Assembly: GCA_024400455.1 (NCBI GenBank)
Contig: JAKSMU010000001.1
Coordinates: 248,001-312,000 of the forward strand
Direction: 5' to 3'
DNA length: 64,000 bases
From: Bacteroidales bacterium
GTDB lineage: Bacteria; Bacteroidota; Bacteroidia; Bacteroidales; F082
Shown here: piece after piece, positions 30,307 through 37,454 of the stretch
Position numbering within the stretch: the first letter of the stretch is position 1
How the letters are laid out: every line of letters begins with the position of its first letter
The notes under the pieces: generated by a model
Told to the model about the DNA's origin: nothing
Seen by the model: only the letters and a program-made list of their open reading frames with translations
The model's database searches: none
Translations under genes and position numbers: made by a program

Positions 30307-31170
30307 ATGGAAGGTCGTGCAAAAAGCAAAATATTTGTTTTCAGTGTGTTAGCATTGTTTGCTATGTGCTGCCTTTTGCCGAAATTGTCCTTTTCGCAAG
30401 AGAAAAACCTGCCGCAAGTCGATGTCTTTTTTCAGGATTACGATTTCAATGACACGTCTTTGATGCATGCAGAAGCGTTTACTCGAAAATTGGCAGAATA
30501 TGTCTATCAGTTTTATGAAAATGAGGATTTTGGAAATCAGGAAACGGCTTACATTGTCGGTTTGTCGCCCTTGTTCGAGAAGGCCAAATGCAATATGCGG
30601 TTGTATGAGTTTATCTTGGATTTCATGCTGAATGGCTTTGAAAATCTGGAACTTGCATCAGTCACCGATTATCTGCTGAATTTCCCGGCTTTGAATGAAA
30701 ACGAGATTTCGGCTGAGCAAGGCGAGCGTTTGGAACGCATTGCGGAACCTTATCAAAAGGTGAAGGTAGGCGCCTTGACGCCTGATATCGAGGGGATTAA
30801 TTCGGAAGGTGAACCTTATCATTTGTATGATTCTCAAACAAAATATACCCTCGTGGTGTTTTGGGCTACGGGCTGCGAGCATTGCCACGATTTCCTGAAA
30901 CATGTGCGTAAGAAACTCGATTTGAAAAAAGAATATGATCTGGTTACTTTCGCTATTGCAGAAGATGAAGCGGACTGGCGCGATAATTTGAAAGAAATGC
31001 ATATCACGGGACAACATTTCTTTGATGAACAGCGTTGGGGTGGCAAGGCTTTTGAGGATTACCATGTCACCCAAGCCCCGACTGCTTTTCTGATTGATGA
31101 AAACAAAATCATCGTGGCGAAGGTCTATGACTGGAAGGAACTGAAAAATGAGATTAAAAATTTGAAATGA
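30307..31170 (+). CDS. Exported thioredoxin-like (TlpA-type) protein
   Basis: A 287-residue protein with a signal sequence (MEGRAKSKIFVFSV to about residue 30). The N-terminal half is helical and of unknown function (DUF5106/DUF4369-like layouts occur in such proteins). The C-terminal half, from about residue 155, is a thioredoxin fold: PDIEGINSEGEPYHLYD, then VVFWATGCEHCHDFLKHV with the redox CEHC motif, and the cis-Pro segment TQAPTAFLIDE. It should act on thiols or disulfides in the periplasm. It overlaps the GH3/serine-hydrolase gene by 4 bases. Confidence 0.85.
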   Translation: MEGRAKSKIFVFSVLALFAMCCLLPKLSFSQEKNLPQVDVFFQDYDFNDTSLMHAEAFTRKLAEYVYQFYENEDFGNQETAYIVGLSPLFEKAKCNMRLYEFILDFMLNGFENLELASVTDYLLNFPALNENEISAEQGERLERIAEPYQKVKVGALTPDIEGINSEGEPYHLYDSQTKYTLVVFWATGCEHCHDFLKHVRKKLDLKKEYDLVTFAIAEDEADWRDNLKEMHITGQHFFDEQRWGGKAFEDYHVTQAPTAFLIDENKIIVAKVYDWKELKNEIKNLK

Positions 31171-34127
31171 ATATGAAAATAAAGTGCTATTTGTCAATTT
31201 GTTTGGCAGGATTGCTGTCGATGGCCGGCAGCGTTTTCGGACAGAATGCCGAGACCCATTGGGTGGATTCGGTTTACAACAGTTTGACCCTCGAACAACG
31301 TGTCGGTCAGTTGATTTGCATGCGCGCCAATCAGGCGGATAAACCTTATTCGGAGAATGTTGCCAAATACATTCAGCAATATAACATCGGCGGCGTGTGC
31401 TTTTTCCGTTACGACGGTGAAAAGCAAGTCGACCAGGCTAACAAATGGCAAGCCATCGCTCAAACTCCGCTGATGGTCTCCATCGATGCGGAATGGGGCT
31501 TGGCCATGCGTGTGAAGAATACAATCAACTATCCTTACCAAATGACGCTTGGTGCCATTTCGGATAATGATTTGATCTATCAGATGGGACAGCAGGTCGC
31601 CGAACAATGCCAGCGTATGGGAGTTCATGTCAATTTCGCGCCAGTGGTGGATGTCAATTCCAATCCGGCCAACCCGATTATCGGGATGCGCAGTTTCGGT
31701 GAAGACCCGCAGAAAGTAGGGGAGAAAGGGGTGGCTTATGCACTTGGAATGCAGTCGAAAGGCATGATTACCACTATGAAGCATTTCCCGGGCCACGGCA
31801 ATACCGCCACCGATTCGCATATGACTTTGCCTACCGTGACGCGTACCTTGGATGAAGTGCAAAACATCGAATTAGCTCCTTTCAGATACATGATTGAGCA
31901 TGGCGTGAATGGCGCTATGGTCGGCCATCTTTATTTTCCTGCCATTGAGAAGGTTAAGAACACTTCTTCGTCATTGTCTTATGGTGTCGTTACGGAGTTG
32001 CTGAAAAAGGAAATGGGTTTCAAGGGCTTGATTTTTACTGATGGCCTCGACATGAAGGGCGTTTCAGAAACCATTCAATCTAAAGATGTGCCTTACGAGG
32101 CTTTCATGGCTGGCAATGATGTCCTGATTTTGCCCGTCGATGTGCCGTATGCCATCAAATCCATCAAGACGGCGGCTGAGAAAGACCCGACAATAATGGC
32201 ACGAGTGGAGGAAAGCTGCAAAAAAATCCTCACCTATAAATATCGTGCAGGCCTCAATCATTACAAACCTTCGCCTACTGCATTTCTGTTTTCTGATTTG
32301 AAGCGGCAGGAATACAAAGACTTGCGTCAGACGCTTTTCGATAATGCCGTCACGATGCTGAGAAACGAGGATGTCTTTCCGCTTTCAAAAAGCAAAAAGA
32401 TTGCCGTGGTGACTATCGGCAACACGAAAAACGATGTGAACAATGGATTGCTCGACAATGGCTATAAGACAACATCATTTGTATGCACGAAAGATGAAAT
32501 TTCCGCTAAATCTGCCGCTTGGCTTAAACAGCTTGAAACATACGATTTGGTTGTCGTCGACATTGAAAAGACCACGATGTTTGCTGCTTCAAATTACGGC
32601 ATCAATGATGCAACGGTCAACTTCTTCAACCATCTTGTCGCTCAGAATGATGTGGTGCTCAATTTGTTTGCTTGTCCATACGCTTTGGATATGTTCCGTG
32701 TAAACAATAGCGTGAAGGGCATTTTGGTTGGTTACGAAGATGAAGTACCAGCCGTGAATACAGTGGTAGCTGTCATGTCGGGATTGCAGGATGCCAAAGG
32801 CACTTTGCCGGTTTCAACTACAAAATTTGCCTGTGGCGATGGTATAGTCCCTGCCGGACAACCAGCCAAGAAAACCTACGTTCCCGTTCTGAACAAGCCG
32901 TCTGTTGAACCGGAAAATTCGATTCCAAAGACCTTGAAAGCTCCCACTTCAGTGAAAATATCCAAGGAATACGAACAACGCCTTGACCAGGTTGCCAAAT
33001 CGGGCATAACTCAAGGCGCTTATCCGGGGTGTCAAATCGTGGCCATGAAGGATGGCGATGTCATTTATGACAAGTGTTTCGGCACTTTTACATATGATGG
33101 CAGTCACAAAGTGCAACCGTATGATATTTATGACATTGCATCGTGTACGAAGGTCTTTGCCGCGACCTTGGCGATGATGAAACTCTACGAAGATGGCCTC
33201 GTGGATTTGAACAAGACTTTGGCCGATTATTTTCCTTATCTGAAAGGTTCCAATAAGGCTAATTTGAAAATCATAGAACTGATGACGCATCAGGCTGGAT
33301 TGAAGGCGTGGGTGCCGTTCTATAAGTCTACAATTGATAAAAACGGACCGTTGCCCGAGTTCTATTCCACTCATATTGATGATAATCACACTGTTCGTGT
33401 AGCGGAGAATCTTTATCTTGTCAACGACTACGATGAAAAGATCTTCGATTCAGTCATGAATACCAGTTTGGGCAGTAAGAAATACCTTTATAGCGATATG
33501 GGGTTCTATTATATCCCAAGAATCGTGAAACAGGTGACCAACCAGACTATTGAAGAATACTTAAATGAAAAATTCTATGGTCCGATGGGCCTCACTCATA
33601 TCGGTTACAAGCCTTTGAACCGTTTTTCGCGCGAGCAGATTGCTCCGACTGAAAACGATACTATTTTCCGTAAACAGTTGATTTGTGGCGATGTGCACGA
33701 CCAAGTGGCAGCTATGTTTGGCGGAGTTTCGGGGCATGCCGGACTGTTTTCCAATGCCCGCGATATGGCAGCCATTATGCAAATGCTCATCGATGATGGT
33801 TTTTATCATGGAAAACAATACTTGAAACCATCCACGATTAAGTATTTTACAACAGCACCATATACAGCTAATGACAATCGCCGCGGCATTGGTTTCGACA
33901 AACTGCCTTTGGGAAAGAAGGGCAGTGCAACGGCATCGAAATCAGCATCAATGGCAAGTTTCGGACACACGGGTTTCACGGGCACTTTCGCCTGGGCTGA
34001 CCCTGAAAACGATTTGATTATTGTCTTTTTGTCGAACCGAGTCTGTCCTAATGCTGAACCGAACAAACTGGTGAAAACAGGTATCCGCACCCAGTTGCAC
34101 GACATTCTGTATGAGGCTGTGAAATAA
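31167..34127 (+). CDS. GH3 beta-N-acetylglucosaminidase fused to a serine hydrolase (beta-lactamase-like)
   Basis: A 986-residue exported protein with two enzymes. Residues about 30-370 are a glycoside hydrolase family 3 barrel of the NagZ kind: KHFPGHGNTATDSH (near 204), with the His/Asp pair used by NagZ-type enzymes, and FTDGLDMKGVS (near 290) with the nucleophile Asp. A middle GH3 C-terminal-like domain follows. From about residue 600 comes a penicillin-binding/beta-lactamase class C fold: SCTK (near 658), the YSD motif, and HTGFTG near the end in place of KTG. The layout is common in Bacteroidota and is linked to peptidoglycan breakdown or recycling: the first part would cut GlcNAc-MurNAc, the second an amide or ester. 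The signal peptide ends near GSVFGQ. Confidence 0.9.
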   Translation: MNMKIKCYLSICLAGLLSMAGSVFGQNAETHWVDSVYNSLTLEQRVGQLICMRANQADKPYSENVAKYIQQYNIGGVCFFRYDGEKQVDQANKWQAIAQTPLMVSIDAEWGLAMRVKNTINYPYQMTLGAISDNDLIYQMGQQVAEQCQRMGVHVNFAPVVDVNSNPANPIIGMRSFGEDPQKVGEKGVAYALGMQSKGMITTMKHFPGHGNTATDSHMTLPTVTRTLDEVQNIELAPFRYMIEHGVNGAMVGHLYFPAIEKVKNTSSSLSYGVVTELLKKEMGFKGLIFTDGLDMKGVSETIQSKDVPYEAFMAGNDVLILPVDVPYAIKSIKTAAEKDPTIMARVEESCKKILTYKYRAGLNHYKPSPTAFLFSDLKRQEYKDLRQTLFDNAVTMLRNEDVFPLSKSKKIAVVTIGNTKNDVNNGLLDNGYKTTSFVCTKDEISAKSAAWLKQLETYDLVVVDIEKTTMFAASNYGINDATVNFFNHLVAQNDVVLNLFACPYALDMFRVNNSVKGILVGYEDEVPAVNTVVAVMSGLQDAKGTLPVSTTKFACGDGIVPAGQPAKKTYVPVLNKPSVEPENSIPKTLKAPTSVKISKEYEQRLDQVAKSGITQGAYPGCQIVAMKDGDVIYDKCFGTFTYDGSHKVQPYDIYDIASCTKVFAATLAMMKLYEDGLVDLNKTLADYFPYLKGSNKANLKIIELMTHQAGLKAWVPFYKSTIDKNGPLPEFYSTHIDDNHTVRVAENLYLVNDYDEKIFDSVMNTSLGSKKYLYSDMGFYYIPRIVKQVTNQTIEEYLNEKFYGPMGLTHIGYKPLNRFSREQIAPTENDTIFRKQLICGDVHDQVAAMFGGVSGHAGLFSNARDMAAIMQMLIDDGFYHGKQYLKPSTIKYFTTAPYTANDNRRGIGFDKLPLGKKGSATASKSASMASFGHTGFTGTFAWADPENDLIIVFLSNRVCPNAEPNKLVKTGIRTQLHDILYEAVK

Positions 34128-34789: not shown

Positions 34790-36133
34790 TTGAAACGTTC
34801 AGACAACCAATATAAATTCGATGCCTTGCGCCAGCAATTTTCTACTTTTACGTTTGAAAGTCAGGAGATTGAATTGAAAGATGGCACATTGCATCTGGCA
34901 TTTTCCTTCAACCTTGACGGAAAATATCATTTCACTCCCACGCTGACCATTCCGGTACGTTCTTTCTATCATTGGGACTTGATTCCGGAGGAACAGTTGC
35001 AGACATTGGCCTTCCATGTCGGCATGATAGAGCTTGTCAGTTATTGGAAAATCGCATGCCCGAAAAAGGTGATGGTCAAGCCGTTTTCCTTGACAGAAGG
35101 CCAAAAGATGTTTTGGAAGAAACTGTATTACAATGGTTTGGGTGAGTTTTTCTATCTCAACACCATCACGTGTTCTGAGACTGATTTCATGACCATCGAA
35201 ACGCCCGGAGGCAAGCCTTTCGCCAAAGTCGATTTACCTTTGCAGGAAAAGGCAATCATTCCCGTAGGCGGCGGCAAGGATTCAGTTGTTACTTTGGAAT
35301 TGCTTCGCAACGAACTGTCCTGCACGCCTTTGATAGTCAATCCGCGTGGCGCGACATTGGGTTGTGTCGAGACTGCTGGCTACGTCGATGGTACTTTTAT
35401 GGTGGTCAACCGCACATTGGACCCCGTCATGCTGCAACTCAACAAGGAAGGTTATCTGAATGGTCACACGCCATTCTCGGCCATGCTGGCTTTCGTGACT
35501 ATATTGCTTGGTTTTGGCAGTGGTAGCCGCTATATTGCCCTCTCCAATGAGTCGAGTGCCAATGAGTCGACGGTGCCTGGTACGAACATCAATCACCAAT
35601 ACAGCAAATCCGTTGAGTTTGAGCGTGATTTCCGTGAATATGTGGCGGAAAACATCAATGCTGACATTCAGTATTTTAGTTTCCTGCGCCCGCTGAGCGA
35701 GATGCAGATTGCTTATTTCTTTGCGCAGTTCGAGGCCTATCACAAGGTCTTCCGCAGTTGCAATGCTGGCAGTAAGACCGATTCGTGGTGTGGCAATTGC
35801 CCGAAATGCCTGTTCACATGGCTGATCCTTTCGCCATTCATTTCGCGTGAAAAGCTGACCGAAATTTTCGGCAAGGATTTGATGGCTGACATGAGTCTAA
35901 GACCAATCTTTGAAGAACTTAATGGGACTTCAGCGGTGAAGCCTTTTGAATGTGTCGGCACGGTGGAAGAGGTGAGGGCTTGCGTCGATGCCATGCAAAA
36001 CTGCGAAGGCACGATTGCTGCCATTTCGCCAAAAGCGGAGACCAACGTGGCGGAAATGCTGAAACGCTATAATGAAGAAAACTTTTTGCCTGACAAAATC
36101 GCTGCAATCTTAAAATCGAAACTCTATGTTTGA
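34790..36133 (+). CDS. murL: UDP-MurNAc-L-Ala-L-Glu epimerase (MurL-like)
   Basis: A 447-residue protein that I assign to the MurL family. MurL, described in Xanthomonas, uses ATP and Mg to turn the L-glutamate of UDP-MurNAc-L-Ala-L-Glu into D-glutamate. Support: a PP-loop-like ATP motif IPVGGGKDSVV (near residue 160), the NESSANEST segment, and a CxxC pair in WCGNCPKCLF. The next gene, overlapping by 8 bases, is a MurD-type ligase whose glutamate-binding motif is non-standard, as expected of MurD2. The start is the TTG at 34790, because earlier codons overlap the promoter. It could instead be an uncharacterised PP-loop protein, but the neighbour argues for MurL. Canonical cells use glutamate racemase instead; none is in this window. 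Confidence 0.78.
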   Translation: MKRSDNQYKFDALRQQFSTFTFESQEIELKDGTLHLAFSFNLDGKYHFTPTLTIPVRSFYHWDLIPEEQLQTLAFHVGMIELVSYWKIACPKKVMVKPFSLTEGQKMFWKKLYYNGLGEFFYLNTITCSETDFMTIETPGGKPFAKVDLPLQEKAIIPVGGGKDSVVTLELLRNELSCTPLIVNPRGATLGCVETAGYVDGTFMVVNRTLDPVMLQLNKEGYLNGHTPFSAMLAFVTILLGFGSGSRYIALSNESSANESTVPGTNINHQYSKSVEFERDFREYVAENINADIQYFSFLRPLSEMQIAYFFAQFEAYHKVFRSCNAGSKTDSWCGNCPKCLFTWLILSPFISREKLTEIFGKDLMADMSLRPIFEELNGTSAVKPFECVGTVEEVRACVDAMQNCEGTIAAISPKAETNVAEMLKRYNEENFLPDKIAAILKSKLYV

Positions 36134-37454
36134 CAGTATTTTAAACAGGTTGCAGGGCAAACGTGTCCTTGTCCTCGGCTTTGGCCGCGAGGGTAAGTCG
36201 ACCTTGCGTTTCTTGCAGAAATATCTTCCTCATAATGAAATCGGTATCGCCGATAAAAATGCAGCCGCTTTTGCTGAATTTCAAAATCTGCAGCCTGATG
36301 AGCCTGTCGAAGCAAGACAATTGCACTTTCATTCCGGCGACGAATATCTGCAAAACATTTACGATTACGACATTGTCATCAAAACACCGGGCATCTCACT
36401 GAAGGATTTCGATGTGAAAGGCATTGAAATCACATCTCAGACAGACTTGTTTTTGGGTGAATTTCATTGCCAGACCATAGGCATCAGCGGAACGAAGGGC
36501 AAGAGCACGACGACGAGTTTGATTTATCATCTGCTGAAATCGGCTGGAAAAGATGCCATTCTCACGGGCAATATCGGTATTCCATGCTTTGATGTGATGG
36601 AGGGTGTAAAGCCTGATTCAATAGTGGTTTACGAACTCTCGGCGCATCAGTTGGAGTATGTTCACAACGGACCGAAAGTCGGTGTGCTGCTGAATGTGTT
36701 TGAGGAACATCTTGATCATTTTGGCACTTTTGAGAGGTATAAAAACGCGAAATTCAATCTCTTGCGTTTCATGCAGGAAAATGATTTTGCCGTCATCCAC
36801 GATAGTTTGCTGGACGATGTGCTGCCCTTGTTTGTTAATCAGGCGGTGTTTTCGACCATGAATTTTGATGTCGATGAAAGCCGTTTGCCCATTTTGGGTG
36901 AACACAACTTGCTGAATGTGAAGGCGGCCTTGTGTGCTTGTTCGGCTTTCGGCATCGATGAGCGGGAACTGATTCCTTATTTATATACGTTCAAGCCTTT
37001 GGAACATCGTTTGGAGCGCGTCGGCACTTTTGGTGGCGTGACTTTCTTTAACGATAGCATTTCCACCATACCGCAGGCGGCTATTGCGGCTTGCAAGACC
37101 TTGAAAAAGGTTGATTTCCTGCTGCTTGGCGGTTTCGACCGCGACATCGATTACACGCCTTTGATTGATTTCCTTTCAGAAGGCATTGTGCCAAATCTGC
37201 TGTTTACGGGCAAAGCCGGCGAACGCATGATGCAGGCTTTGAAGGATAGGGGAGTAGCGGTCGCGCTTGTTCCGTATGCGTCTATGGATGATGCGTTTGC
37301 CTATCTTTCCGCTCATGCAGAATCGGGCGATGTGTGTCTGCTTTCGCCCGCGGCTTCAAGTTACGACCAATACAGGAATTTTGAGGAAAGAGGCCGGAAA
37401 TTCAAGGCTTTGGTGGAACGGTTTGCTTTGTCAAATCAGAAAAAAATTCTTTAA
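36126..37454 (+). CDS. MurD-type ligase, probably the L-glutamate-using MurD2
   Basis: A 442-residue Mur ligase that joins glutamate to UDP-MurNAc-L-alanine in the cytoplasm. N-terminal Rossmann part: VLVLGFGREGKST. Central ATPase: GISGTKGKSTTT (residues 120-130), where ordinary MurD has G-x-NGKST. C-terminal part: HRLERVG, then NDSISTIP near residues 309-316, and FEERGRKF. Ordinary MurD has NDSKATN at the NDSISTIP position, in the region that contacts D-Glu; the lost Lys suggests a different glutamate form. With the overlapping MurL-like gene this points to MurD2, which adds L-Glu before MurL inverts it. If the genome also has a standard murD in the dcw cluster, this would be a second enzyme. 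Confidence 0.82.
   Translation: MFDSILNRLQGKRVLVLGFGREGKSTLRFLQKYLPHNEIGIADKNAAAFAEFQNLQPDEPVEARQLHFHSGDEYLQNIYDYDIVIKTPGISLKDFDVKGIEITSQTDLFLGEFHCQTIGISGTKGKSTTTSLIYHLLKSAGKDAILTGNIGIPCFDVMEGVKPDSIVVYELSAHQLEYVHNGPKVGVLLNVFEEHLDHFGTFERYKNAKFNLLRFMQENDFAVIHDSLLDDVLPLFVNQAVFSTMNFDVDESRLPILGEHNLLNVKAALCACSAFGIDERELIPYLYTFKPLEHRLERVGTFGGVTFFNDSISTIPQAAIAACKTLKKVDFLLLGGFDRDIDYTPLIDFLSEGIVPNLLFTGKAGERMMQALKDRGVAVALVPYASMDDAFAYLSAHAESGDVCLLSPAASSYDQYRNFEERGRKFKALVERFALSNQKKIL

Follow-up and report, generated by a model that had tools for sequence, protein, structure and literature searches.

A putative MurL–MurD2 route to peptidoglycan D-glutamate in a Bacteroidales bacterium, and an orphan MurD C-terminal domain beside ftsW

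How does a Bacteroidales bacterium obtain the D-glutamate of its peptidoglycan when a gene for a PP-loop protein overlaps with one for an atypical MurD-like ligase? The first-pass annotation of the window (the whole 64,000-nucleotide stretch of DNA analysed), made from the sequence alone, proposed that the two genes encode a MurL–MurD2 pair, as known from Xanthomonas and some actinobacteria, and that the organism could either dispense with glutamate racemase (MurI) or have both routes. The biochemistry of MurL and MurD2 has been described (PMC8788868, PMC5808125); reviews report that MurL has no known domains, requires ATP and releases AMP, and place it in Gamma- and Alphaproteobacteria and Actinobacteria; they also mention distant orthologs in cyanobacteria, a fungus and an amoeba. 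Bacteroidota are not named in those reviews, as far as the open-access literature goes.

The available evidence is that the murL-murD2 operon is very likely (probability about 0.9) the only de novo route to D-Glu in the peptidoglycan of this organism, the activities of both enzymes being inferred. MurD2 would add L-Glu to the wall precursor, which MurL would then epimerise to the D form; these reactions, including the use of L-Glu over D-Glu, are assigned by analogy with the characterised Xanthomonas and actinobacterial enzymes.

Results

The operon and the pairing of its genes

The open reading frames, their coordinates and the motifs GTKGKST and NDSISTIP given in the first-pass annotation all held, as did the 8-base overlap of the two genes (ATGTTTGA), which places the murD2 start inside the end of murL.

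34790..36133, forward strand: predicted MurL-type epimerase gene, 447 residues, TTG start (supported by the NF041275 match, an AlphaFold model and the occurrence of TTG in relatives)
36126..37454, forward strand: murD2, predicted L-Glu-adding MurD-type ligase, 442 residues (TIGR01087, E 3.5e-93; Glu/Arg/Ile at the specificity positions)

Of the 137 MurL loci drawn from related genomes, 136 have MurD2 beside MurL or fused to it; given this, and the match of the window protein to the NCBIfam MurL model (E = 1.2e-77), the pairing is not due to chance. In 10 of the 137 loci, from at least two families, MurL and MurD2 form a single protein of 885-996 residues (L023, L025, L035, L037, L117, L124, L227, L230, L231 and L288). 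The predicted fusion structure has two well-folded units joined by an unstructured linker (residues 453-477); the relative placement of the domains is not fixed by the model (pTM 0.57).

Some further features of these loci were observed. The TTG start of murL, at 34790, recurs in 22 of the 24 genus relatives that are readable there, and it is possible that such a rare start keeps expression low. Two of the fusions (L035, L230) have in-frame inserts, encoding PEPVEGP and SLSKG-like peptides, that look like the translation of a mobile palindromic repeat. In two genomes of family f69 (G103 and G326) MurD2-like frames and MurL lie on separate contigs, which may mean that the two genes are not linked in that genus. 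Elsewhere in the window, at 31167-34127, is a gene of 986 codons that appears, judged only by eye, to encode a family 3 glycoside hydrolase part and, after it, a part resembling a serine beta-lactamase.

Specificity residues of MurD2

The ligase scores as a MurD (TIGR01087, 313 bits, cut-off 212), and is like canonical MurD, e.g. that of E. coli, in fold, P-loop ligase chemistry and most catalytic residues. It differs, however, at three positions linked to substrate chirality. In Xanthomonas oryzae MurD2, the preference for L- versus D-Glu is set by Glu197 and Arg358, which correspond to Asp182 and Lys348 of the E. coli enzyme, and substitution of Lys319 by Thr in E. coli MurD also admits L-Glu (PMC8788868). 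Alignment with E. coli MurD (L301) places Glu, Arg and Ile at the D182, K348 and K319 positions of the window ligase. The readable MurD2s counted below come from the 137 MurL loci, and alignment positions count the first Met (published number + 1).

36489..36509, forward strand: GTKGKST, ATP-binding P-loop of MurD2, with Lys in place of Asn
36705..36707, forward strand: Glu at the E. coli MurD D182 position, in 134/134 readable MurD2s (published determinant E197, PMC8788868)
37050..37073, forward strand: NDSISTIP motif, Ile at the E. coli MurD K319 position, in 132/132 readable MurD2s
37140..37142, forward strand: Arg at the E. coli MurD K348 position, in 132/132 readable MurD2s (published determinant R358, PMC8788868)

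All 61 ordinary MurDs from Bacteroidales have Asp, Lys and Lys at the D182, K348 and K319 positions. The P-loop Lys is likewise constant (136/136 MurD2s), Asn being present in 49/49 and 9/9 ordinary MurDs.

It could be argued that the ligase is an ordinary D-Glu-using MurD and that the PP-loop protein is an unusual racemase producing free D-Glu. Such an arrangement would likewise account for the mutual exclusion with MurI described below, and the ligase does exceed the TIGR01087 cut-off. We consider it very unlikely, however, since no readable MurD2 retains any of the three chirality-linked residues, which ordinary Bacteroidales MurDs keep as Asp/Lys/Lys, and Xanthomonas MurL showed no racemase activity with free Glu (PMC8788868). 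The family match and the gene pairing, along with the specificity residues and a distribution complementary to that of MurI, together make it very likely that the window genes are a MurL–MurD2 pair, as the first-pass annotation had claimed, with activity still inferred.

The family and predicted fold of MurL

The possibility that the PP-loop protein groups with an unrelated family, which would have refuted that assignment, is not borne out, because it matches the NCBIfam MurL model NF041275 over model positions 4-394 of 447. The score (261 bits) falls below the model cut-off of 700 bits, which was set for Xanthomonadales. Two groups of residues are invariant in an alignment of 38 MurLs.

35261..35284, forward strand: PP-loop motif PVGGGKDS (ATP pyrophosphatase loop), G167-S172 invariant; PP-loop enzymes are also the fold neighbours
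35759..35809, forward strand: four cysteines, C331, C341, C344 and C347, a probable metal site

The AlphaFold model of MurL, built from the 38 sequences, is confident (pLDDT 89.9, pTM 0.89). Its nearest solved folds are QatC (VIA Z 18.7 over 326 residues, rmsd 3.9), QueC (VIA Z 13.4) and Cap9 (VIA Z 12.5), followed by other PP-loop enzymes. The predicted structure of MurL shares the PP-loop domain fold of QueC/QatC; the likeness, which extends to the PP-loop itself and to the cysteine cluster, which we take to resemble the QueC zinc site, is no proof of function. By contrast with this structural similarity, sequence identity to these ATP pyrophosphatases is only 9-16%, with no sequence match at a useful E-value, and both substrate and outcome differ. 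The QueC family PF06508 matches 9 of the 38 MurLs, weakly (best E 0.012); a PDB sequence search with MurL returned nothing beyond a short PP-loop match, Foldseek used by itself gave the model no hit with E below 0.001, and PADLOC returned nothing for MurL. A PP-loop fold would be compatible with the conversion of a carboxylate into an activated adenylate, a step that is inferred.

Distribution of MurL and MurI

The home genome (2.9 Mb, 75 contigs, 99.6% complete) encodes MurC, MurE and MurF. Searches of it gave no match to MurI, no second full-length MurD, and no D-amino-acid transaminase above cut-off, the sole weak match to the latter reading as a branched-chain aminotransferase. It remains possible that murI sits in the missing part of the 75-contig assembly, though it is absent from every genus relative examined. 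The proposal that the organism could do without glutamate racemase is therefore supported by the genome search.

Among 295 Bacteroidales genomes with a completeness of 90% or more, MurL was found in 95 and MurI in 187 (186 above cut-off and one split match), both in none and neither in 13. As the genomes are related, any chance value for this exclusion is only a rough guide. Eight of the 13 genomes without MurL and MurI above cut-off have a full MurD. The alternative raised in the first-pass annotation, i.e. MurI with MurD operating beside MurL with MurD2, finds some support in the retention of an intact full-length MurD by half of the MurL genomes; against it, no MurI occurs here or in any of the 95 MurL genomes, and the only other MurD of the home genome is a C-terminal domain. 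We regard the coexistence of two routes as very unlikely.

A survey of 392 genomes from across the phylum gave MurL in the home genome only, two 20-bit matches being set aside. Of the best 80 matches in named genomes, almost all carry the label Bacteroidales, Bacteroidia or Bacteroidetes; few are from cultured organisms, and many are from ruminants. Compared with the MurD2–MurL pathway of X. oryzae, Micromonospora and Salinispora (Feng et al. 2017, via PMC8788868), the Bacteroidales version has the same enzyme pair, encoded by neighbouring genes, the same Glu and Arg, and no MurI. It differs in that it has diverged (261 bits with the Xanthomonadales model), that the two enzymes are fused in some loci, and that it is associated with the retention of MurD or of the MurD C-terminal domain. 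The pathway is very likely one of a known kind, now in a new and widespread setting that includes gene fusions.

An orphan MurD C-terminal domain

The gene order in E. coli is mraY, murD, ftsW. In the home genome the gap between mraY and ftsW is occupied by a MurD remnant, which the first-pass annotation did not include, the remnant being on another contig.

L009:8416-8982, home contig C7 (outside the window), reverse strand: orphan MurD C-terminal domain, 188 residues, mraY-ftsW gap, intact frame

Unlike canonical MurD, the orphan has neither an N-terminal nor an ATP-binding domain: it matches only PF02875 (the C-terminal domain), with no match to the ATP-binding middle domain PF08245, and aligns to TIGR01087 at positions 278-440 (118 bits, under the cut-off). 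The 95 MurL genomes comprise 40 with an orphan, 49 with a full MurD and 6 that are unresolved. The listed rows for 83 MurI genomes all have a full-length MurD and none has an orphan (weaker rows are unlisted, so this is not exhaustive). The 62 orphans collected are in the mraY-ftsW position wherever both neighbours are readable, immediately preceding ftsW and frequently overlapping with it by a few codons. An apparent orphan in G136 proved to be a contig end and was removed, and a 548-residue MurD-like match in G109 was left out because mraY and ftsW were not found beside it. A further genome, G050 (98% complete), has a very diverged orphan (in locus L220:1-4601), with no MurL, MurI, full MurD or MurD2 found; the missing enzymes of its D-Glu route may fall in an assembly gap.

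The orphan is under purifying selection across the whole domain. None of the 62 contains a stop codon, length is steady at ~170-199 residues from the ATG, and dN/dS (0.03-0.18 in 12 close pairs) is similar to that of the neighbouring ftsW (0.02-0.13). D317, W327, H301 and R302 are kept in >80% of orphans. In those of the home genus, the D-Glu-binding Lys348 and Thr321 are mostly lost (Thr to Glu in 23/25) and Asp317 and the fold core are kept. The orphan persists throughout one genus despite low identity. That the orphan is a decaying pseudogene nearing loss might be suggested by several branches on which orphans change faster than the C-terminal domain of full MurDs; the absence of stops, stable length, ftsW-like dN/dS and genus-wide retention make this very unlikely.

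The evidence is that truncation occurred repeatedly, because the orphan/full label requires 14 changes on the C-domain tree (12 on a thinned set) and a single orphan clade is rejected on the thinned set (p-AU 0.0003). Both states occur within each of ten family codes. Fifty of the 62 orphans begin with an ATG at a column holding Met in 57 of 61 full MurDs. The 18 bases 5' of this conserved internal ATG in full murD are 47% A, versus 30% before other internal ATGs, and A at -3 aids initiation in Bacteroidota (PMC6847099). As an internal-start signal the A-rich stretch is no more than suggestive, since the encoded residues also favour A.

Decay of the full MurDs in MurL genomes was considered and rejected, since their catalytic residues are intact (49/49) and the domain rate ratio is unchanged (1.32 in MurL versus 1.37 in MurI genomes, p 0.30). 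Because these enzymes keep catalysis and change no faster outside the C-terminal domain, truncation is not the endpoint of a visible decay. The full MurDs may use salvaged D-Glu, or some D-Glu may enter in another way; both possibilities are inferred.

Discussion

The recurrence of truncation, together with the Met start shared with full MurDs, indicates a ligase-independent role for the orphan C-terminal domain, a conclusion towards which we lean in the absence of functional data. Our preferred reading, held by a modest margin and without binding data in Bacteroidales, is that the domain is a scaffold or regulator in a MraY-FtsW-MurG complex, a role that MurD would already have had, possibly as a C-terminal isoform made from the internal ATG. 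Consistent with this proposal, independent truncations recur to the same domain, its start coincides with the conserved Met preceded by the A-rich stretch, and Mur ligases are reported to bind FtsW, FtsQ and FtsZ in Mycobacterium tuberculosis (PMC3605390) and MreB, MraY and MurG in other species (PMC4929429). Against it, the A-richness is confounded by the encoded amino acids, and the full MurDs of MurL genomes have retained catalysis.

The main rival is that the orphan is not a working protein but a leader enabling translational coupling into ftsW, directly 5' of which it lies, often with overlap. This appears unlikely, since a leader needs no specific fold, whereas selection acts on the whole domain and D317, W327, H301 and R302 are kept. 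The scaffold reading can be extended in a bolder form, for and against which we see similar odds: the MurD C-terminal domain may have a second, ligase-independent job, perhaps as a separate internal-start product in ordinary Bacteroidales, and the gain of MurD2–MurL may have freed murD to be cut back several times to that domain.

The results place a rare peptidoglycan route, with its reactions inferred, in a major gut order, in about one-third of the genomes sampled, with MurI in none of those. This bears on drugs directed against MurI, MurD or MurD2, and also on annotation, because MurD2 ligases score as MurD. The predicted PP-loop fold offers a structural starting point from which to test how MurL would invert a peptide glutamate. 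A recurrent single-domain MurD is, to our knowledge, not previously described; as a natural experiment, the remnant suggests that a classic enzyme may have a non-catalytic job, and which part of it may do so.
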